A stretch of DNA of 32,083 nt, taken from Gammaproteobacteria bacterium (GTDB lineage Bacteria > Pseudomonadota > Gammaproteobacteria > CAIRSR01). The DNA lies in assembly GCA_963575655.1 (NCBI GenBank), contig CAUYTY010000198.1, positions 1-32,083 of the forward strand. Reading direction: 5' to 3'. This document shows, one piece after another, positions 5,228 to 23,148 of this stretch (within the stretch, counting starts at the first letter, position 1; the number at the start of each line of letters is the position of its first letter). The translations under genes and the position numbers were made by a program. The notes under the pieces were generated by a model. The model saw only the letters and a program-made list of their open reading frames with translations. It made no database searches and was not told the origin of the DNA.

Positions 5228-5870
5228 TTCCTGTGGATAACTATCCCCCTTTTGCCTGTTATACGGTGGATAACTCGTAAAATTTTCCACTTTCTGTCAT
5301 CCGTCTACTTATCCACAATTCATACACCTAACAACTTATTACTTATCCACAACGTTTCTTTGTTAAATTATTCACTAGATCCAACTAGTTATGATCTTAT
5401 ACACAGATCGGGCGGTGCCTTATTAGTGTAGTTATCTTTTAAATCTTTAAGTATTTTATAAATACAATGCGATCGAACCTACCGATAGGTAGCATTGTTG
5501 GATCTCCTGAGATGACAAGATGCCCAGAAAAAATTACGCATATTCTCCTCGTAAAACGCGCAATTTTAGAATTGTTTTATCGGTCACTAGGTTAATCGTC
5601 GTTTTTAATAAACCTAAGACCTTATCAGGTAATACCTCTTGTGGATAACTATCCCGTATTATGCCCCTATGCGGTGGATAACTCGTAAAATTTTCCACTT
5701 TGTTGCCATGCGTCTACTTATCCACAATTCATGCGCTCAACAATCCCTTGTTTACCCACAGCGTTTCTTTATCGAATTGTTTATTGGATCCAATTGGTTA
5801 TGATCTTATCCACAGATCGGGCGGTGCCTTATTGATGTAGTTATCTTTTAAATCTTCAAATCTTTTATTA
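5228..5870. other. DnaA-box cluster in two direct repeats: candidate replication origin or DnaA-titration locus
   Basis: Ten 9-mers match or nearly match the DnaA box TTATCCACA. Exact copies lie at 5309, 5343, 5718 and 5806 on the plus strand and at 5232 and 5640 on the minus strand. TTATACACA is at 5397. One-mismatch boxes are at 5265 and 5673 (minus) and 5752 (plus). They form two sets of five with the same order and orientation, offset by 408-409 bp, inside diverged ~230-bp direct repeats (about 5228-5460 and 5636-5870). The fifth box of each repeat is framed by GATC on both sides and followed by a conserved AGATCGGGCGGTGCCTTATT. Each repeat ends in an AT-rich tract (about 5428-5465 and 5838-5875) that could unwind. 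No gene was found in 5056-6050. No dnaA, dnaN or mnmG is nearby. Confidence 0.8.
5464..5498. repeat. Interrupted palindrome between the two DnaA-box repeats
   Basis: ACAATGC (5464-5470) pairs with GCATTGT (5492-5498), and an inner CTACC/GGTAG stem lies inside. It sits in the spacer between the two DnaA-box repeats and has no counterpart after the second repeat. It could be a protein-binding site or a cruciform; no function is established. Confidence 0.35.
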
Positions 5871-13368: not shown

Positions 13369-14829
13369 ATGTCGTTGTTGACCCTTCTACTGGTTCTTCC
13401 CCTCCTGGGGGCGATGCTGATTGCCCTGGTCCCCCCTCAACGGGAGCGGTGGATCAGAAACCTAGCTCTGACGGTTTCGGTCGCCACCATGATACTGGCG
13501 GTCTGGATCGCCCACCTTTTCGACCCACTCCTGGGTGGTTTGCAGTTCTTCGTCAAGGTTCCTTGGCAGCTTCGCCTGGGTAGCTATTTCTCCTTGGGAG
13601 TAGATGGGCTTTCTTTGCCTTTAGTACTTCTTGCCGTCGTGCTCAATGTGGTTGCTCTGCTTGCCTCGGTTCAGGACCGCATTAAGGGTTACACCATCGC
13701 CATGTTGCTCCTAGAGTCCGCCTTATTGGGGGTGTTCATGGCCCAGGATTGGTCCCTGTTCTACGTCTTCTGGGAGTTGACCCTGTTGCCCCTGTTTATC
13801 CTTATCAATCGTTGGGGGGGGAAGCGACGAGGGCAGGCAGCCCTCAATTTTATGCTCTATACCATGGGCGGATCGGTGTTCATGCTCATTGGCCTATTGA
13901 TTGCCTTTGACGCTGCTGGAGTCCACACCTTCGCCATGGCGGAAATGAGCGTGGGTCTGCAAAATGCCTCTCCCAGAACTCAGCTTCTGATCTTCTTAGG
14001 TTTCTTTATTGGTTTCGGCGTCAAGATGCCAATCTTTCCCCTCCACGGTTGGCTACCACTTGCCCATGTGGAGGCCCCCAGCTCGGTAAGTATCCTGCTC
14101 TCTGGTGTGCTTTTGAAGATGGGTTCCTATGGACTCATCCGTGCTGGGGCGATGTTGCCCCACGCCATGGTGTCGATGCAGGGCGTGCTTGGTACCCTGG
14201 CTCTAATCAACTTGCTCTATGGTGGCCTCCTCGCTTGGCGGCAGAGTGACCTCAAGGCGATGATTGCCTACTCCTCGATCAGTCACATGGGCGTGGTGCT
14301 TCTGGGTCTCGCCGCCCTCAACACTGCTGGTGTTACCGGTGCCGTGGTACAGATGGTGGCTCACGGTTTAGCGGCTGGGGCGCTTTTTCTCATCGTTGGC
14401 CTACTTTACCAGCGCACCCACACCCGTGATGCGAGCCACTATGGTGGCTTGGTCCATGTCACCCCGCGCTTCGCTCTGTTTACCACCATGGCCTTTCTGG
14501 GAGCGGTGGGTATTCCTGGTACCGCTGGTTTTGTGGCGGAACTTCACGCCATCGTCGGTAGTTTCCAGCGCTGGGGTGGCGTGGCGGTGGTACTTAGCTT
14601 GGGTATGTTGATTAGCGCTGCCTATGGGGTGCGTACCGTGGGCTACCTTTTCAGCGGTTCCGTTGCCCCAGGTATGAACAAGATCTCCGACCTCAACCGC
14701 AGTGAGTTGGTGGCGGTGGGTATGCTAACCACGGGCATGGTGGGATTGGGTCTGGCGCCCCTCCCTTTGCTTTCTATGATCGAGACTTCGGTGACCCGCT
14801 TTAACTCGCTATTTGCGGGATACTTGTGA
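13369..14829 (+). CDS. NuoM/MrpD-like proton-translocating subunit of a DAB-type complex
   Basis: A 486-residue, 13-14 helix member of the proton-conducting antiporter family (NuoL/M/N, MrpA/D). The key charged residues are present: Glu in YVFWELTLLPLF (near residue 139), Lys in GFGVKMPIFPLHGWLP (near 212) and Lys in LLSGVLLKMGSYGLIR (near 249). This suggests a working ion path. It is the first gene of the dab operon and ends by overlapping dabA (TGATG). No good ribosome-binding site precedes the ATG, and only 26 bp separate it from the mobile element upstream. No other complex I genes (peripheral arm, NuoH) are nearby, so it belongs to the DabA complex rather than a full complex I. Confidence 0.88.
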   Translation: MSLLTLLLVLPLLGAMLIALVPPQRERWIRNLALTVSVATMILAVWIAHLFDPLLGGLQFFVKVPWQLRLGSYFSLGVDGLSLPLVLLAVVLNVVALLASVQDRIKGYTIAMLLLESALLGVFMAQDWSLFYVFWELTLLPLFILINRWGGKRRGQAALNFMLYTMGGSVFMLIGLLIAFDAAGVHTFAMAEMSVGLQNASPRTQLLIFLGFFIGFGVKMPIFPLHGWLPLAHVEAPSSVSILLSGVLLKMGSYGLIRAGAMLPHAMVSMQGVLGTLALINLLYGGLLAWRQSDLKAMIAYSSISHMGVVLLGLAALNTAGVTGAVVQMVAHGLAAGALFLIVGLLYQRTHTRDASHYGGLVHVTPRFALFTTMAFLGAVGIPGTAGFVAELHAIVGSFQRWGGVAVVLSLGMLISAAYGVRTVGYLFSGSVAPGMNKISDLNRSELVAVGMLTTGMVGLGLAPLPLLSMIETSVTRFNSLFAGYL

Positions 14830-17800
14830 TGGCAGCATATTCCTCACGCCGGGAGAGGTTGATCCACGCTGTCCACCACCTGGAGCACATCCTTCCAGAT
14901 CAGGCCCCACTCCAGGATTTCGTGCATCACAATACCCTGCACGGCTATCAACACCTACCTTTTCCCGATGCCTTGGTTGCGGCATACAAGGTCACCGGTA
15001 TTCTTGGTTATTTGTCCCCGGAGAGTTTCCGCGCCCTGTTAGCCCAGGAGCGTATCACCATGTCCGACCTGGAGGCGGTGCTCCAGGCCACTCCTTGGCT
15101 CAATGCCGAAGAGTCCCTAGGACCGTGTCGGCGGTTGGATGTTTACCGAACGGCTCTACTCCAGGATCTGGACCCGATTCCCCCCTCTCGGTTGGCTTGG
15201 GAGCTAGAAAGGGTAACGGAGCATGGATTGTGGCAAGGGTGCCTTGATGTTTTACACCTCCCCCATGACCCTAATCACATCGAAGAAATCCTGCACCTGA
15301 GCGAGGAGCGAGCCCAAGCCCTCCTTGATCGTTTACCTGGGGAGAAAGCCGACGGTACCTCCCGTAGTGCTGCTGAACTGCATCGAGAATCAGAACACCT
15401 ACTTCATCTCCTGATAGACCAGGTGGGGGTTACCCTTACCGTGAGGGGGCTGCTAATGGCCCTAACCGGTCAAGACATCCTGGTTGAGGTGCGTCCCTAT
15501 CTGGTGCGGCAACTGGCGGCCTTCCTGGATCAGGGCCTCTCTCCTTGGCCCTTACCCGGGCGGGAAAAAGGGTTCTATGCGGCCTGGCGGCAGGTGGCTT
15601 TGGCCGACCCCAACTATCGGTTGGAAGAACTCCCTGACTGGTACGAGACCATTGAACAGCTTCCCGAAGAGGCTGTGGACGCAGTGGAACAACTGCTCTC
15701 CCAGTTGGGATTGCCAGAGAAGCGCTGGGAGGGGTATTTAAAGCGTCTGGCCTTGGAATTACCCGGCTGGTCCGGCATGGTCCAGTGGCGACGCAACCGC
15801 CCCGGTTATCTGGGTTTTACCTCGCCCACGACGGTGGACTACCTAGCGGTGCGCCTGGTGCTCGAACAGCTCACCGCCGTGCGTCTGTGTCGAGCGCACT
15901 GGCGATTGGGACCCCGTCTGGACCTGCTCTCCTGGCACTTCCGTCGCGCACGCGCCGAGCTGGTGATGCGTTGGTACCTATTCAACGATGAGATCCCCGA
16001 ATACCTGGCCAGTCGCGTACAAATGTTCCTGCGTCGGGCGAAAGAAAACCCGGTGAGTAACGAGGAATGGCAGCGATTGGCCCATCTGTATCTGACTTGG
16101 CGGTTAAGTCAGGGTGAGCAGGGGAAGTTCAGCGTTTGTCGTCATGCCTGGCCGTTATTTCTGCTGACGCGCAGCCTGGGACTGACGGAAGACAAACTCC
16201 GGCAGGGTGGGTATCCCTTGGCGAAGGTGCTACTGGATACCCTCTCGCGCCTGACCCCGGAACGGGTAGGTTACCTCTGGCTTCAGGCCTACGAACGTCC
16301 CTATCGGGAGGCAATCCTCGCCGGGGTGGCGGCCAATCACGGGCGAGGACGTTGGGCCTTTCGCAAGGAATGTCCGGTGGCGCAGGTGGTCTTCTGCATG
16401 GATGATCGAGAAGAGGGCTTCCGTCGTCATCTGGAGGAGCGCAACCCTTCTGTGGAAACTCTTGGGGCTGCAGGATTTTTCGGCGTCCCCATGAATTGGC
16501 AAGGGCTAGATGATGCAGGGTTCACCGCCTTGTGTCCGGTGGTGGTGACCCCGGTAAACATAGTACGAGAACAGCCTCAAGGGAACGCTGCCGATCTATC
16601 TCGGCGTCATAGTCACCGGCGGGGGTTACGCTTACGTTGGCGAGATCGGTTTCTGCGTCTTTCTCACCGAGGCGTGGTAACTCCGGCACTACTCTCCCTG
16701 TTGATGGCGTCATGGGCGTTGATAGGCTTGGTCGGAAGGCTTATGGCCCCTCTGGGGATGGGGCGGTTACTCTCCGCCCTTCGGGTACGTTTCGACTTGA
16801 CCGTGCCCAGTACCTTGAATTTCATCGCCCCGGCGGAAGATCGTACCCCTAGCCCGGAACAACCCCGTGAAGGTTTTACCGATACCGAACAGGCCACCCG
16901 TGTGGAGGGAATGCTACGTACTATGGGGTTGACCTATGGCTTCGCCCCCCTGGTGGTAATTATGGGGCACGGCTCTAGCAGTCAGAACAATCCCCACCTG
17001 TCGGCCTACGATTGCGGTGCCTGTAGTGGTCGTCATGGTGGTCCCAATGCTCGTCTCTTTGCTGCCATGGCCAACCGTCCAATAGTGCGCGACATATTGG
17101 CCACTCGAGGCATCACCATCCCCGATACGACTTGGTTTTTAGGGACAGAGCGCGACACTGGCAGTGAGGAGATCACCTGGTACGACCTGGACCAACTCCC
17201 CACCGGGTTACGGGAGGGGTTGGCGGTGCTACGCCACGACCTGGACGCGACCCGGGCACTCTCTGCCCATGAACGCTGCCGCCGTCTTGCTTCCGCCCCT
17301 CGCCACCCAACCCCGATCCAGGCGTTGGCCCATGTGGCGGGTCGAACGGTGGACTTTAGTCAGGCCAGACCCGAACTGGGCCACGTTACCAACGCGGTGG
17401 CCCTGATTGGCCGCCGTTCGGTCACCCAAGGGGTATTTTTCGACCGCCGCATGTTTCTCATCTCCTACGACCCGACCCAAGACCCGGAGGGAAAGATCGT
17501 GGAGGGCATCCTCCTTGCCGCTGGACCAGTGGGCGCGGGGATCAGTCTGGAATACTATTTTTCTACTGTGAATAATGACCGCTTTGGCTGTGGCACTAAG
17601 GTGGTACACAACGTTACCGGCTTTTTTGGCGTTATGGAGGGGACGAGTTCCGATCTGCGTACTGGCCTGCCTCGGCAGATGGTCGAGATTCACGAGGCCA
17701 TGCGCCTATTGGTGATCGTGGAGCAGAAACCCGGGGTACTTACCGCCATTTGCCAGCGTCAGCGCATCGTGGCGGAACTGGTACTTAATGCCTGGATCCA

Positions 17801-17990
17801 ACTGGCGGCCCTGGATCCCGAAAACGGTGACATTGCCGTTTTCAATCCTGAAATGGGCCGGTGGGAGTCTTGGCAAGGTAGCAACACCCCCCTGCCCCGT
17901 GCGGAGAGTTCTCCTGCTTGGTATGGCGGTTGCGACGGTCCACTCGCGCCTGCCCTTATTCGTCAACCTGAGGAACGTACCCATGGTTGA
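14829..17990 (+). CDS. dabA: DabA, DUF2309 carbonic-anhydrase-like subunit for inorganic carbon uptake
   Basis: This 1053-residue protein belongs to the DUF2309/UPF0753 family. DabA is a zinc protein that, with a membrane partner, is thought to hydrate CO2 vectorially using the ion gradient. The N terminus has FVHHNTLHGYQH (near residue 31). The beta-carbonic-anhydrase-like site is visible: C-x-D in VVFCMDDREE (near 521-530), His in VVIMGHGSSSQNNP (near 714) and Cys in YDCGACSGRHGG (near 727-738). There is no signal peptide; it should sit at the cytoplasmic face of the membrane. The ATG at 14829 overlaps the previous stop, and an adjacent GTG at 14826 is possible. Many characterised DabA proteins are nearer 800 residues and this is a longer member. 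Confidence 0.95.
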   Translation: MAAYSSRRERLIHAVHHLEHILPDQAPLQDFVHHNTLHGYQHLPFPDALVAAYKVTGILGYLSPESFRALLAQERITMSDLEAVLQATPWLNAEESLGPCRRLDVYRTALLQDLDPIPPSRLAWELERVTEHGLWQGCLDVLHLPHDPNHIEEILHLSEERAQALLDRLPGEKADGTSRSAAELHRESEHLLHLLIDQVGVTLTVRGLLMALTGQDILVEVRPYLVRQLAAFLDQGLSPWPLPGREKGFYAAWRQVALADPNYRLEELPDWYETIEQLPEEAVDAVEQLLSQLGLPEKRWEGYLKRLALELPGWSGMVQWRRNRPGYLGFTSPTTVDYLAVRLVLEQLTAVRLCRAHWRLGPRLDLLSWHFRRARAELVMRWYLFNDEIPEYLASRVQMFLRRAKENPVSNEEWQRLAHLYLTWRLSQGEQGKFSVCRHAWPLFLLTRSLGLTEDKLRQGGYPLAKVLLDTLSRLTPERVGYLWLQAYERPYREAILAGVAANHGRGRWAFRKECPVAQVVFCMDDREEGFRRHLEERNPSVETLGAAGFFGVPMNWQGLDDAGFTALCPVVVTPVNIVREQPQGNAADLSRRHSHRRGLRLRWRDRFLRLSHRGVVTPALLSLLMASWALIGLVGRLMAPLGMGRLLSALRVRFDLTVPSTLNFIAPAEDRTPSPEQPREGFTDTEQATRVEGMLRTMGLTYGFAPLVVIMGHGSSSQNNPHLSAYDCGACSGRHGGPNARLFAAMANRPIVRDILATRGITIPDTTWFLGTERDTGSEEITWYDLDQLPTGLREGLAVLRHDLDATRALSAHERCRRLASAPRHPTPIQALAHVAGRTVDFSQARPELGHVTNAVALIGRRSVTQGVFFDRRMFLISYDPTQDPEGKIVEGILLAAGPVGAGISLEYYFSTVNNDRFGCGTKVVHNVTGFFGVMEGTSSDLRTGLPRQMVEIHEAMRLLVIVEQKPGVLTAICQRQRIVAELVLNAWIQLAALDPENGDIAVFNPEMGRWESWQGSNTPLPRAESSPAWYGGCDGPLAPALIRQPEERTHG

Positions 17991-19548
17991 GTCTCTCGTG
18001 GTCTGGATCCCCGGTTTACCCGCCCTAGTCGCTGCCAGCATTGTCGTGGGGTGGTTCACCGGTCGAAATCGTGAGGAGGCGGGAGAAAGGGCTACTGCCC
18101 TGTTGGCTACGGGGGCGACGGTGCTTTCCTTGCTGTTGCTCCTGGTGCTGGATGCTGCTGCCCTGATGATGGAAAACGCCCCGGGCCAGGTGTCGTATCG
18201 CCCCTGGCTGGAAAGTGGAGACTTCCAGGTAATGTTTAGCTTTACCCTGGACCGGTTGAGTTTGGCCATGGCAACTCTGGTGGCAACGATTGCCGTCCTC
18301 ACCCTGCGTTTTTCGGTCAACTACATGCATCGAGAGGGGGGATTTCAGCGTTTTTTCGCCGTGCTCTGCCTATTCGTGGCCGCCATGTTGCTCATTGTGT
18401 TGGCTGGCAACGGGGTAATGATGTTCGTGGGTTGGGAGGTGGCGGGGCTTTCCTCCTACCTCCTCATCGGCTATGCCTATGACCGTTCTATCGCTACCGG
18501 CAATGCCGTTCGTGCCTTGGTTACCAATCGATTTGGTGATGCGGGTTTTATCGTGGGTATTGTCCTTACCCACCACTGGTTGCTGGGTCTGGAATGGCCG
18601 CAGATCGTTGCCCATGTTCAGCAAGTCGATAATCTTCATGTAGGATTGATCGCTGGTGGATTTATGCTGGCGGCCTTGGCCAAGTCTGGCCAATTCCCTT
18701 TTGTCGGATGGTTGCCCCGCGCCCTGGAAGGTCCCACCCCTTCAAGCGCCATTTTCTATGGGTCTCTCATGGTCCACGCTGGGGTCTATCTGCTGCTCCG
18801 ATTGGAGCCCCTGTTGGTGGAGGTGCCGGTGATAATGGGCCTCCTCGTCTGTCTAGGGGGAGTGACCACTTTCTACGGCTTTTTCTCCGGTTTGGCTCAG
18901 ACCGATGTTAAAAGTGCCCTGCTCTTTTCTACTCAGAGTCAGGTGGGGATGATGTTTCTAGCCTGTGGTATGGGGTGGTTCGAGTTTGCTTTCTGGCACA
19001 TGCTAGCCCACGCCGCTTGGCGGGCTTACCTCTTCTTGAACGCCCCGGCTTACATGCATTTGGTGCATGGTCCAGTGCGGCACGTACCCTCCTGGTTGGC
19101 GAATAACCTCTTTCTGTATGCAGCGGCGACGCGACGCTTTTGGGTGGACACCTTAGAGGAACAACTCATCATCCGTCCTACTCAGGCCCTGTCCCAGGAC
19201 GTACAGACCTTTGACGATCTGGTGATTGACCGCATGGTGGGTCACATCCACGGTGGTCGTAATCCCTCTTCTCTGGAGGAGTGGGAGGCGCAACGTCAGA
19301 AGTTTCACGAAAATGAAGGCATTGATATTGATTTCGCCTGGGGCCGTGGGATCCTGGGCAATATGTTGGAACGGATTGCCTCCCAGTTGCATCGCTTTGA
19401 GGAGCGCCTGTTATTGGGGAGCGGTGGGGATGGTCTCTTGCAGAGTTTGCGACGCCTGGGTCACATTCTGGAATTAACGGATAATTTGTTGGAACAGCCG
19501 CGTTATTTGTTGCTTCTCGTGGTTCTGACCTTCGTCGTAATCCTCTAA
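17983..19548 (+). CDS. dabB: NuoL/DabB-like ion-translocating subunit
   Basis: A 521-residue NuoL-like membrane protein, the type that pairs with DabA as DabB. Conserved residues include Glu in MMFVGWEVAGLSSYLLIGY (near 151), Lys in LAALAKSGQFPFVGWLP (near 231) and the following GPTPSSAIFYGSLMVHAGVYL. After about residue 360 it leaves the antiporter core for a hydrophilic, charged stretch (about 390-500). It then closes with one hydrophobic helix, recalling the lateral arm and final anchor of NuoL. The ATG at 17983 overlaps the dabA stop by eight bases and has GAGG about 9 bases upstream. A longer in-frame opening from 17788 lies inside dabA and was rejected. A 250-bp relic of a close paralog lies at 22851-23104. 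Confidence 0.88.
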   Translation: MVESLVVWIPGLPALVAASIVVGWFTGRNREEAGERATALLATGATVLSLLLLLVLDAAALMMENAPGQVSYRPWLESGDFQVMFSFTLDRLSLAMATLVATIAVLTLRFSVNYMHREGGFQRFFAVLCLFVAAMLLIVLAGNGVMMFVGWEVAGLSSYLLIGYAYDRSIATGNAVRALVTNRFGDAGFIVGIVLTHHWLLGLEWPQIVAHVQQVDNLHVGLIAGGFMLAALAKSGQFPFVGWLPRALEGPTPSSAIFYGSLMVHAGVYLLLRLEPLLVEVPVIMGLLVCLGGVTTFYGFFSGLAQTDVKSALLFSTQSQVGMMFLACGMGWFEFAFWHMLAHAAWRAYLFLNAPAYMHLVHGPVRHVPSWLANNLFLYAAATRRFWVDTLEEQLIIRPTQALSQDVQTFDDLVIDRMVGHIHGGRNPSSLEEWEAQRQKFHENEGIDIDFAWGRGILGNMLERIASQLHRFEERLLLGSGGDGLLQSLRRLGHILELTDNLLEQPRYLLLLVVLTFVVIL

Positions 19549-19559
19549 GTAAAACCGCC

Positions 19560-21086
19560 ATGATCATTTCCGAGATCCCCTGGTCGAGCCAAATAGGTTT
19601 TCCTATTCTGGGAGTAATGCAATTCCTTCCTGTCTTGGGGGCGATTCTGCTCGTTGTCACTCGTCGGAGCCAACTGGCGGTATTCATGGCCTTAGTTCTA
19701 GGTCTCGTCGAGCTAGGGTTGGCCCTAACTCTTCGTCACACCTTCGTCCCTAACCAACCTGGTCTTCAGTTGGTGGAACGGCTGCCCATCATCGGTCTCC
19801 TGAACTACCATTCTGGAGTGGATGGTATTGGTGTGCTGTTCATGCTGCTCACGGCCTTTCTCTCGTTTATGGTGGTGGTGTACGGCATTTTTATTCGTCG
19901 TTTTGAGTTTCTTCCGCGCTATCTTGCCGTGGTGCTGGCCATGGAGGCCCTGATCATGGGCCAGTTTGCGACCGTGGACCTGCTCTGGTTCACCCTGCTT
20001 ACCCTGACGCAAACAGTATTTTCTGGGCAGCTACTCAGGGTGTGGGCCACTTCTTCAGAGGAGGGTCCGGCGGTGGCGCGTTTCTACCAATTCATGGGCG
20101 TGTCTCTGCTCTTGCTCATCACTGCGACCCTGCTTCTAGGTTGGCAACATGCGATGGCCAGCGGTGGTTTCTGGTGTTCTGACCTTCCGAGTCTCTCTGC
20201 CATTGAACTGCCGCCAGCTTTGCAATCGGTGATCTTCTACCTGTTGCTTTATGGTTTGGCCATTCGTATCCCTATGTTTCCCCTTCACGCTTGGTTGCCC
20301 CTTGTAGCGGAACATGGCACGGTGGCTTCGGCCATGGTGCTGCTATTGGGGTTGAAGACCGGGGTGTATGGCTTGATTCGCTTCGTCTTTCCGTTGCTGC
20401 CATACGCGGTGGAGCAATGGCACGGTTATGTCATTGCCATTGCCGCCACTGGTATTTTTTATACCGCTCTCCTTGCTCTCATGCAGCAGAACCTGCGTCG
20501 ACTTGTGGCCTACGCCGTGGTGAGTCATACCAGCATCTTGGTGATTGGTCTGTTCAGTCTTCAGGCCCCCGCTTTTCAGGGAAGTATCATCCTGGCGGCG
20601 AATTTTGGTTTGGCGATCTCCACCCTGCTTTTCACTCTAGGCATGGTGTACATGCGTACCAATACCATGCAGTTATCCAAACTGGGGGGAATATTTGACT
20701 TCCTACCCGGGATTGCTATTGCTTTTCTGGTGGCCAGTTTGGCTATCGCTGGTATGCCGGGTACCCCTGGTTTTGACGCCGCCCATCTCATACTAGATGC
20801 CGCGATTCACACCTTTGGCGCCCTGGTGACCATTACTGCCGCTTTGGGTAATGTCGCGGCGGTAAGCTGTCTGCTGTGGGCCTTTCAGCATACTTTTCTC
20901 GCCCACCCGTCCCCCAAAGAGGTGATTACCTTGGCACGGGCTAGTGCCGTGGAGACGGCCTTCGTCGTGGTGATGATTGTGGTGCAGCTAGTGGCGGGGT
21001 TTCACTCGGAACCGTGGTTAGGGTTAGTAGATCGGGCCAGTCGAGAGTTGGCCACGCCTTACCAGAGCGAAAGGAAACCAGAATGA
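19560..21086 (+). CDS. NuoM/N-like subunit lacking canonical Glu and Lys
   Basis: This 508-residue antiporter-like membrane protein has about 14 helices. The motif positions are recognisable but altered. Where pumping subunits have FWELTL, it reads WFTLLTLTQTVF (near 143-154), with no Glu. Where they have GVKxPxFPLHxWLP, it reads LAIRIPMFPLHAWLP (near 237-251), with Arg for Lys. The next Lys is kept (LLGLKTGVYGLIRF, near 264-277). It may be a structural or modified ion channel subunit rather than a standard pump. It starts 11 bp after the NuoL-like gene and overlaps the next gene by ATGA, so it is translationally coupled and unlikely to be decayed: the reading frame is intact throughout. Confidence 0.82.
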   Translation: MIISEIPWSSQIGFPILGVMQFLPVLGAILLVVTRRSQLAVFMALVLGLVELGLALTLRHTFVPNQPGLQLVERLPIIGLLNYHSGVDGIGVLFMLLTAFLSFMVVVYGIFIRRFEFLPRYLAVVLAMEALIMGQFATVDLLWFTLLTLTQTVFSGQLLRVWATSSEEGPAVARFYQFMGVSLLLLITATLLLGWQHAMASGGFWCSDLPSLSAIELPPALQSVIFYLLLYGLAIRIPMFPLHAWLPLVAEHGTVASAMVLLLGLKTGVYGLIRFVFPLLPYAVEQWHGYVIAIAATGIFYTALLALMQQNLRRLVAYAVVSHTSILVIGLFSLQAPAFQGSIILAANFGLAISTLLFTLGMVYMRTNTMQLSKLGGIFDFLPGIAIAFLVASLAIAGMPGTPGFDAAHLILDAAIHTFGALVTITAALGNVAAVSCLLWAFQHTFLAHPSPKEVITLARASAVETAFVVVMIVVQLVAGFHSEPWLGLVDRASRELATPYQSERKPE

Positions 21087-22546
21087 TGGATATGCCCTAT
21101 CTGAGTCTGTTGATCGCGTTGCCGCTAGTGGGGGCGGTGTTGCTGGGGGTGGTTCCAGTGAGAGGTCGAATTCGGGAGGTAGCCCTGCTTGTGACTCTGG
21201 TGGAATTGGCCTTGGCCCTGGCCACCCTGATGGCGGTGGATCCTAATTCCCACGCCTTTCAATTACAGGAAGAACTCCCCTGGATCCCAGACCTGAACAT
21301 CCATTACCGAGTAGGGGTGGATGGCCTCTCCGCGCTTTTTCTGCCATTTACCGCCCTGCTCTTTGCTGGGGTGATCGTTGCCTCTCCGGTGATTCAAATC
21401 TTGCCTCGGCTTCACTTCTCTATGCTTTTGTTCTTAGAGGGGGCCACCATAGGGGTGTTTACCGCCTTGGACACGATGCTCTTCTTTCTGTTTTGGGAGC
21501 TGACCTTGGCACCGGTCTACTTTCTAGTGAGCTTGTGGGGTATCGGTCCTCGCCGTCGGGAGGCAGCGACTAAGTACACACTGCTGATGTTAGTCGGGGG
21601 TGTACCCCTTTTATTCGGTTTCCTGATGGCTGCCTTGGCTCATGTCGAGCCGCTGTTCGATCTACCCTCCCTCCTTGCGCATCCTTTGCCTCCCTCTCTC
21701 CAGACCATGGTTTTTCTGCTCTTACTGGTGGGATTTGGGGTAAAGACCCCGGTTTTGCCTTTTCATACCTGGCTACCCAGCGTGGCGATGCAAGGTCCAA
21801 CTGGGGTGGTGGCAGTGATGACCGGTCTCAAACTGGGGGCTTACGGGCTGCTGCGCTTTGCCATTCCCATGGCCCCGGAGGCGGCTCGTAGCTTTCACTG
21901 GTTGCTGGCGGGATTGGGGGTGACGGGTATTGTCTATGGCGTTTTGGTTGCCCTAGCGCAGACCAATCTTCGCCGTTTGCTCGCTTACTCCAGCATCAGT
22001 CATGTAGGTCTAGTGGTGCTGGGGCTTGCTTCGTTCTCACTTCAGGGGGTGCAGGGAGCAGTATTCCAGCTTCTCAATTTCACCCTGGTGGCGGGTGGGC
22101 TCTTTTGTTTGGCGGGATTTCTTCAGCATCGTTTCGGCTCCACCGACCTTATCCACCTAGGGGGGTTGGCGCGTCCTATGCCAAAGGCCGCCATTTTTTT
22201 CCTACTGCTGGGATTAGGTGGTCTAGGGATGCCACTGACCTCGGGTTTTCCTGCCGAGTTACTTCTTTTGCAGGGTGCCCTGTCCTCTCACATGGGGGCC
22301 GGTCTGGCCGCTCTAGGTGGAGGCATCATCAGTGCGGCCTATTTCTTGGGTTTCTACCGTCAAGCCTTTCTTGGTCCGCTTCGTCACCCCTACCTAAGCC
22401 GAGGACCAGACTTACTACCTCGGGAGTTTCTGGTGCTGGGGGTGCTGGGTATTTTGTTGTTGGTCGGTGGATTCTTTCCGAGATTAATCCTTGGTTTTAC
22501 TCGAATGGCCGCTGAGGGATGGATCCAAAGATTAACAACACCGTAA
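21083..22546 (+). CDS. NuoM-like proton-translocating subunit, last gene of the dab operon
   Basis: A 487-residue antiporter-like membrane protein with all key residues: Glu in LFFLFWELTLAPVYF (near 140), Lys in GFGVKTPVLPFHTWLP (near 222) and Lys in GLKLGAYGLLRF (near 258). The ATG at 21083 overlaps the previous stop (ATGA) and follows AAAGGA at a good distance; the 23 extra residues of a longer frame from 21014 lie inside the upstream gene and were rejected. It closes a gapless five-gene set. No terminator with a T-run follows; palindromic repeats begin within 25 bp. Confidence 0.87.
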   Translation: MMDMPYLSLLIALPLVGAVLLGVVPVRGRIREVALLVTLVELALALATLMAVDPNSHAFQLQEELPWIPDLNIHYRVGVDGLSALFLPFTALLFAGVIVASPVIQILPRLHFSMLLFLEGATIGVFTALDTMLFFLFWELTLAPVYFLVSLWGIGPRRREAATKYTLLMLVGGVPLLFGFLMAALAHVEPLFDLPSLLAHPLPPSLQTMVFLLLLVGFGVKTPVLPFHTWLPSVAMQGPTGVVAVMTGLKLGAYGLLRFAIPMAPEAARSFHWLLAGLGVTGIVYGVLVALAQTNLRRLLAYSSISHVGLVVLGLASFSLQGVQGAVFQLLNFTLVAGGLFCLAGFLQHRFGSTDLIHLGGLARPMPKAAIFFLLLGLGGLGMPLTSGFPAELLLLQGALSSHMGAGLAALGGGIISAAYFLGFYRQAFLGPLRHPYLSRGPDLLPREFLVLGVLGILLLVGGFFPRLILGFTRMAAEGWIQRLTTP

Positions 22547-22568
22547 CCAGTGGCAGCAGGACTTTGTC

Positions 22569-22670
22569 GGGCGCAATAGCGAAGCGTATTGTGCCGAATA
22601 TTAAACTCGCTCGGTTGCTGGTGAGCGCGAAGAATAGCTATTATTGGCAAGGCTAACCGCTATTGCGCCC
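22569..22670. repeat. MITE-like palindromic repeat (GGGCGCAATAGCG ends)
   Basis: GGGCGCAATAGCG (22569-22581) is matched by its perfect reverse complement at 22658-22670, with 76 bp between. The left arm continues as AAGCGTATTGTGCC, itself a partial palindrome around AGCGAAGCG. It has no coding content and lies just after the dab operon. Confidence 0.7.
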
Positions 22671-22694
22671 TACACGGGCTTATTTTTATTCGTG

Positions 22695-22847
22695 GTAGGA
22701 TGGGTAGAGCGAAGCGAAACCCATCGAATCCCGTTCCAATATTCCAAATCCGCGCCCAACACGCCCCCGGTGTCCCGAGGGCGTTCAAGTCAATCAATCA
22801 AGTTGGTACAGTGAAAGATGGGTTTCGCTTCGCTCTACCCATCCTAC
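22695..22847. repeat. 153-bp MITE-like element with 31-bp perfect inverted repeats
   Basis: The arms 22695-22725 and 22817-22847 are perfect 31-bp reverse complements, starting GTAGGATGGGTAGAGCGAAG and separated by 91 bp. Each arm contains the core AGCGAAGCG shared with the repeat at 22569. The element ends 3-4 bp before the duplicated dab gene fragment. No transposase is present; it is presumably mobilised in trans. Confidence 0.75.
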
Positions 22848-22850
22848 GCT

Positions 22851-23104
22851 TGCTGGAATGGCCGCAAGTCGCCGCCCACGTCCAGCAGACCGACAATCTT
22901 CATGTGGGATTGATCGCTGGTGGATTTATGTTGGCGGCCTTGGCCAAGTTTGGTCAATTCCCCTTTGTTGGATGGCTGCCTCGCGCCTTGGAAGGTCCCA
23001 CCCCGTCAAGCGCCATTTTCTATGGGTCTCTCATGGTCCACGCTGGGGTCTATCTGCTGCTCCGATTGGAGCCCCTGCTGATGGAGGCGCCGGTGATAAT
23101 GGGG
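22851..23104 (+). pseudogene. Fragment of a second NuoL/DabB-like gene
   Basis: This segment matches 18589-18840 of the NuoL-like dab gene at roughly 90% of bases. It encodes the TM7-TM8 region (LEWPQVAAHVQQTDNLHVGL through LEPLLMEAPVIMG) in an open frame. Many differences in the first half are synonymous, while a run of about 70 bases near the end is identical. That suggests a paralog that once evolved under selection, perhaps with gene conversion, rather than a fresh copy. It has no start, ends abruptly in unrelated sequence at about 23105, and its left edge abuts a MITE. It cannot be functional alone. Confidence 0.85.
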
Positions 23105-23148
23105 CCACCAGCGTAAAGTTGCGCAGAGAGAGTATCGTAATTCTTTTA

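Follow-up and report, generated by a model that had tools for sequence, protein, structure and literature searches.

For oriC of Escherichia coli it is established that DnaA assembles on the origin, opens an AT-rich stretch and loads the helicase, and that replication proceeds from there in both directions. As a rule, bacteria have one origin, and it is linked to dnaA or mnmG. The bipartite origins of Bacillus subtilis and Helicobacter pylori consist of two sub-regions separated by dnaA, and the datA and DARS sites of E. coli are not start sites. The bipartite configuration has been described (PMC4403523), as have chromosomes with more than one oriC, namely that of Mycobacterium bovis BCG Pasteur DU1 and the putative double origins collected in DoriC (PMC2448323, PMC4403523), and in gammaBOriS 105 gammaproteobacterial chromosomes are entered with two oriC sequences and 355 with one (PMC7174414). 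In a literature search of incomplete coverage we found no report of an oriC linked to glyA or of a tandem duplication of the oriC core alone.

Here we analyse a stretch of 32,083 nucleotides (the window), which is the whole of contig C198 in the 4.2-Mb, 261-contig draft of a gammaproteobacterium (genome G000) and which carries ten DnaA boxes in a duplicated array upstream of glyA (Table 1). We propose that this site is very probably the chromosomal replication origin, present in two tandem copies, and its identification from sequence as a displaced gammaproteobacterial oriC, away from dnaA, dnaN and mnmG, is strongly supported. As in the E. coli type of origin, the boxes form two opposed groups, the site is intergenic and coincides with a switch in GC skew, and an R1-like box is followed by G and 13 nt, TTATTA or TAATAA and an AT-rich unwinding element. 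The complete E. coli genome shows the same succession of box, 14 nt and TAATAA junction in oriC, between mnmG and mioC. Unlike that origin, the array lies away from mnmG/mioC and from dnaA, and it consists of two complete tandem copies. With the dnaA-linked gammaproteobacterial origins, found in the dnaA-dnaN interval or upstream of dnaA, it shares recognition by one sequence profile (21 loci outside the family, see below), whereas here dnaA stands beside parC on another contig that has no box cluster.

Table 1. Features of the duplicated DnaA-box array and its surroundings, in window coordinates; origin and unwinding functions are predicted
Feature	Start	End	Strand	Remarks
Phosphofructokinase-family gene, left neighbour	3343	4626	-	Pfam PF00365; transcribed away from the putative origin
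Nearest left open reading frame, 113 aa	4714	5055	-	no Pfam match
Putative oriC copy A, five DnaA boxes and DNA-unwinding element	5229	5462	+	direct repeat; profile R1 105.3 bits; profile R2 29.7 bits, E = 4e-7
DnaA box A1, exact TTATCCACA	5232	5240	-	
DnaA box A2, TTATCCACC	5265	5273	-	
DnaA box A3, exact TTATCCACA	5309	5317	+	-88 relative to box 5; counterparts in copy B, G001 and G003 at -87/-88
DnaA box A4, exact TTATCCACA	5343	5351	+	-54 relative to box 5; counterparts in copy B, G001 and G002 at -53 to -55
DnaA box A5, TTATACACA	5397	5405	+	adjoins unwinding element; equivalent in position to E. coli R1
Unwinding element A, TTATTA...ATCTTTTAAATCTTTAAGTATTTTATAAA	5420	5479	.	dG -66.0, rank 1, least stable 60-bp stretch of the window
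Putative oriC copy B, five DnaA boxes and DNA-unwinding element	5637	5871	+	direct repeat; profile R1 105 bits; profile R2 32.3 bits, E = 6.4e-8
DnaA box B1, exact TTATCCACA	5640	5648	-	
DnaA box B2, TTATCCACC	5673	5681	-	
DnaA box B3, exact TTATCCACA	5718	5726	+	
DnaA box B4, TTACCCACA	5752	5760	+	
DnaA box B5, exact TTATCCACA	5806	5814	+	adjoins unwinding element
Unwinding element B, TTATTGATGTAGTTATCTTTTAAATCTTCAAATCTTTTATTAAATC	5828	5887	.	dG -68.5, rank 2, second least stable 60-bp stretch of the window
Minimum of the window's cumulative GC skew	6034	6034	.	
glyA, right neighbour	6051	7307	+	transcribed away from the putative origin

The initial annotation had described two direct repeats with five boxes each in the same order and orientation, and the coordinates and the alignment bear this out: the repeats are 234 and 235 bp long, lie at an offset of 408-409 and align in two gapless blocks with identities of 83% and 80%. 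Six of the ten boxes match TTATCCACA exactly and four carry one mismatch (TTATCCACC twice, TTATACACA and TTACCCACA). Within the window, boxes with at most one mismatch number 16 against 6.5 expected, a count reached in none of 100 shuffles. The array is the densest DnaA-box cluster in the 0.75 Mb of the genome examined and holds 6 of the 38 exact boxes found genome-wide, and the paired-box pattern occurs nowhere else in this genome. It had also been argued that the spacers diverge while the boxes are conserved. This is correct for the boxes, which agree between the copies at 43/45 positions versus 152/191 of the remaining positions (Fisher p = 0.008), but not for every spacer, as conservation extends to the side of the unwinding element (51/57) and to the box 2-box 3 spacer (32/35), and most differences fall in the other spacers.

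Each repeat had been said to end AT-rich, as an origin would, and the two least stable 60-bp stretches of the whole window are indeed the two predicted unwinding elements, both of which start 14 nt past box 5; element A is 84% AT over 50 bp. GATC sites bracket box 5 in both copies as initially reported (5393/5406 and 5802/5815), which had implied regulation of the SeqA type. That implication is unsupported: SeqA was found in none of the four family genomes under conditions in which the E. coli control was detected, and the bracket is absent in the congener G001, where the sequence reads TTATAGACTTATTCACAGG. Given the absence of SeqA and the lack of these GATC sites in the congener, those flanking box 5 probably do not serve SeqA-type sequestration, and a SeqA-regulated origin of the enterobacterial kind was rejected on the same two grounds, which also set this origin apart from that of E. 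coli.

A GC-skew analysis, one of the checks initially proposed, places the strongest switch at the ten-box array. Among 2165 test positions in 748 kb of the genome (about 18%), the largest 5-kb skew jumps all fall at this site (0.27, sd 0.054; largest elsewhere 0.19), the comparison being with part of a draft and not with a closed chromosome, and the jump partly tracks gene direction, so that on third codon positions alone the site ranks 3 and not 1. The skew passes from about -0.14 on the left to about +0.13 on the right. The array occupies the intergenic region between the 113-aa reading frame, which ends the left gene group, and glyA, and the genes diverge from it. The left group also contains an H+-pyrophosphatase gene beside the phosphofructokinase-family gene, and the order to the right is glyA-nrdR-ribD-riboflavin synthase-ribBA-ribH-nusB. 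No parS-like site was found in the window with up to 3 mismatches allowed. Further along the window (13369-23116) lie a gene for a DabA inorganic-carbon transporter and several genes of proton-antiporter type (DabB/Mrp-like), a cluster that suggests an autotroph.

The usual neighbours of an origin were noted from the start as absent, and they lie on other contigs: dnaA on C247, mnmG on C241 and dnaN on C192. A search for a second box cluster near these genes, likewise proposed with the initial annotation, returned none in the parts of the three contigs examined; on the 16-kb dnaA contig two boxes with one mismatch lie about 10 kb from dnaA, and there is no cluster. The DnaA protein itself carries the usual box-recognition motif GGRDHTTVLHA, read from its translation. 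On its contig dnaA stands head-to-head with parC (locus L090 on C247, 12131-15898), away from dnaN, and the dnaA-parC pairing is also found in the sister-genus genomes G002 and G003. As the pairing is common to them, dnaA and the origin became separated no later than when the two genera diverged, or did so repeatedly.

The four family genomes are that of the window, its congener G001 and the two of the sister genus. Because blastn of the 656-bp stretch against 37 relatives gave only chance-level matches apart from the window's own site, we turned to sequence profiles. Profile R1 was built from five family cores, using sequence only and no gene information, and was run over 95 genomes. It matches the window's genome exactly twice, at copies A and B, and outside the family it gives weaker but significant matches (best 42.5 bits, E = 9e-11). 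Among the 26 out-of-family loci returned from the 95 genomes, dnaA adjoins the match in 21. As a profile that holds no gene information nevertheless lands beside dnaA, the element belongs with genuine dnaA-linked origins, that is, it is related in sequence to recognised ones. Profile R2 was built from G001, G002 and G003 alone, with the window held out, and still scores both copies far above the next best match in 805 kb (13.8 bits). Two full-length R1 matches in direct tandem occur only in the window's genome among the 95 scanned. G027, G071 and G003 have a second, weaker match nearby in inverted orientation; in G027 (C138:8508-8786) and G071 (C30:5967-6269) these inverted pairs lie beside dnaA and are back-to-back, not tandem, origin halves.

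Whether the repeat is conserved upstream of glyA in relatives had been put forward as a further check, and the answer differs between the two genera. The congener has a single six-box cluster directly upstream of glyA that aligns with both copies. At its homologous site the skew does not switch clearly (+0.03 on the left, +0.075 on the right), which perhaps reflects a recent rearrangement of the left side; in this region (locus L142 on C221, 1-7000) the genes to the left of the cluster are transcribed in its direction and the skew keeps its sign. In both genomes of the sister genus the box cluster instead lies between suhB and a COG2308 ATP-grasp gene and there is none at glyA, which in G003 is preceded by a coding sequence resembling rpoC (read from its translation), with no origin between. 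G002 has nine exact boxes in this cluster; the boxes of G003 are more degenerate, and its module likewise coincides with a skew switch (about -0.2 to about +0.1). The nine TTATCCACA boxes of G002 (locus L163 on C179, 1093-1281) are packed into less than 200 bp, several of them 11-12 bp apart.

The architecture largely recurs across the family in both orientations and offsets. Measured from box 5 the boxes stand at 0, -54, -88, about -132 and about -165, with ranges of -53 to -55 where that box is present, -87/-88 or a series at -77/-66/-55, and -124 to -180 for the inverted boxes. All members show the box, 14 nt, TTATT or TAATA and then an AT-rich stretch of the TCTTTAAA type. In the window's genome suhB, the COG2308 gene and a DUF403 gene are still adjacent. 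The suhB-COG2308 gap there is about 0.19 kb, compared with about 0.4 kb at the origin-bearing junction of G002 and G003, and contains no remnant of an origin, neither boxes nor any match to the unfiltered profile. As this junction is intact and origin-free in one genus and occupied in the other, it is the module itself that has moved, and on the sequence evidence it is gained or lost on its own, as a compact unit.

Based on these features we propose that in each copy DnaA would occupy box 5, at the position of E. coli R1, together with boxes 4 and 3, which point toward the unwinding element, and that boxes 2 and 1, in the opposite orientation, would hold the other half-complex. The AT-rich element, 14 bp past box 5, would then be melted by the DnaA filament, which would load the helicase, and forks would depart both ways. 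DnaA binding, opening and firing at the array are what we infer from this layout. Two starts separated by 0.4 kb would be redundant, so presumably each chromosome initiates from just one copy in any cycle, and the second copy may raise DnaA loading.

Among the readings offered initially was that of a displaced bipartite oriC. The displaced oriC is upheld by the skew switch, the unwinding elements, the uniqueness of the site, the relatives and the profile. The word bipartite fits only loosely, because the array comprises two complete modules, each with its boxes and an unwinding element, and not complementary halves. Two DnaA-box clusters are what it has in common with the origins of B. subtilis and H. 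pylori, in which dnaA separates two sub-regions; here each copy has the full box set and its own unwinding element, the copies are direct repeats 409 bp apart, and neither dnaA nor any other gene lies between them. The chromosome of BCG Pasteur DU1 likewise has more than one oriC, but by a 29.7-kb duplication that includes genes, whereas in the window the core of about 0.23 kb alone is duplicated and the copies are about 20% diverged.

That only one copy is the working origin and the other a remnant of the duplication is a reading to be taken seriously, although we consider it somewhat doubtful. Both the congener and the sister genus carry the module in single copy, and each copy here has one weakened box (A5, TTATACACA; B4, TTACCCACA). 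Against decay of either copy, all boxes and both unwinding elements are retained at an overall identity of about 80%, the held-out profile scores the two almost equally (29.7 and 32.3 bits), and the copies differ less at positions that are invariant in the relatives: columns invariant in G001, G002 and G003 agree between A and B at 65/72 and the other columns at 69/100 (p = 8e-4). Both copies are thus apparently maintained under selection.

The assembly is a fragmented draft, so a tandem copy could in principle have been made by joining two strain variants; we regard such an artefact as very unlikely. Joined variants should share their flanks, and the flanks of the two copies are dissimilar (left 12.0 versus a shuffled mean of 9.9 and maximum of 15; right 9.0 versus a mean of 10.6); in addition the array is internal to its contig, and the copies share no identical run longer than 30 bp.

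The initial annotation also considered a sink for DnaA, and a titration or recycling site like datA or DARS, which binds DnaA and starts no replication, would share with the array its dense, high-affinity, duplicated boxes away from dnaA, datA and DARS being chromosomal DnaA-box clusters of that kind. This reading is disfavoured to the point of being highly improbable, as both copies have complete unwinding elements at a conserved distance, the skew switches at the site, the profile matches dnaA-linked origins in other families, and no other origin candidate was found in the window's genome. Moreover, that genome holds a better candidate for titration, which lacks a skew switch. Between a purL-like gene (1118 aa) and a kup-like gene (642 aa), both named from their translations, C206 carries at about 51100-52060 three diverged repeats of about 325 bp with several DnaA-type boxes each, 8 of them within 700 bp, the second densest cluster found, and we consider this array a candidate datA/DARS-like site of DnaA titration or recycling.

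The third initial reading, a DnaA-responsive promoter region controlling glyA-nrdR and thereby nucleotide supply, draws on the position of the array directly upstream of glyA in the window's genome and the congener and can be all but set aside, as the 700 bp upstream of glyA are free of boxes in 69 of 76 gammaproteobacterial loci, R1 matches none of 80 gammaproteobacterial glyA loci, and the sister genus has its module between suhB and COG2308 with no box cluster at glyA. With most glyA loci lacking boxes and none matching the profile, the linkage is peculiar to the window's genus and does not reflect a general control by DnaA, and a secondary effect of the array on glyA may exist beside the origin function that we favour.

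The displaced, duplicated oriC proposed here belongs to a family in which two sister genera carry a compact origin between different pairs of genes, which raises the question of how an essential origin changes its address without loss of the chromosome. With the family profile, origins can be located in further draft genomes as well. We tentatively suggest that this is a natural chromosome that begins replication at two complete oriC modules, both kept by selection and separated by 0.4 kb, and that belongs to a family whose oriC module relocates independently of dnaA and leaves the old junction clean. Such a chromosome would raise the question whether neighbouring origins work together, compete or act as backups for each other.
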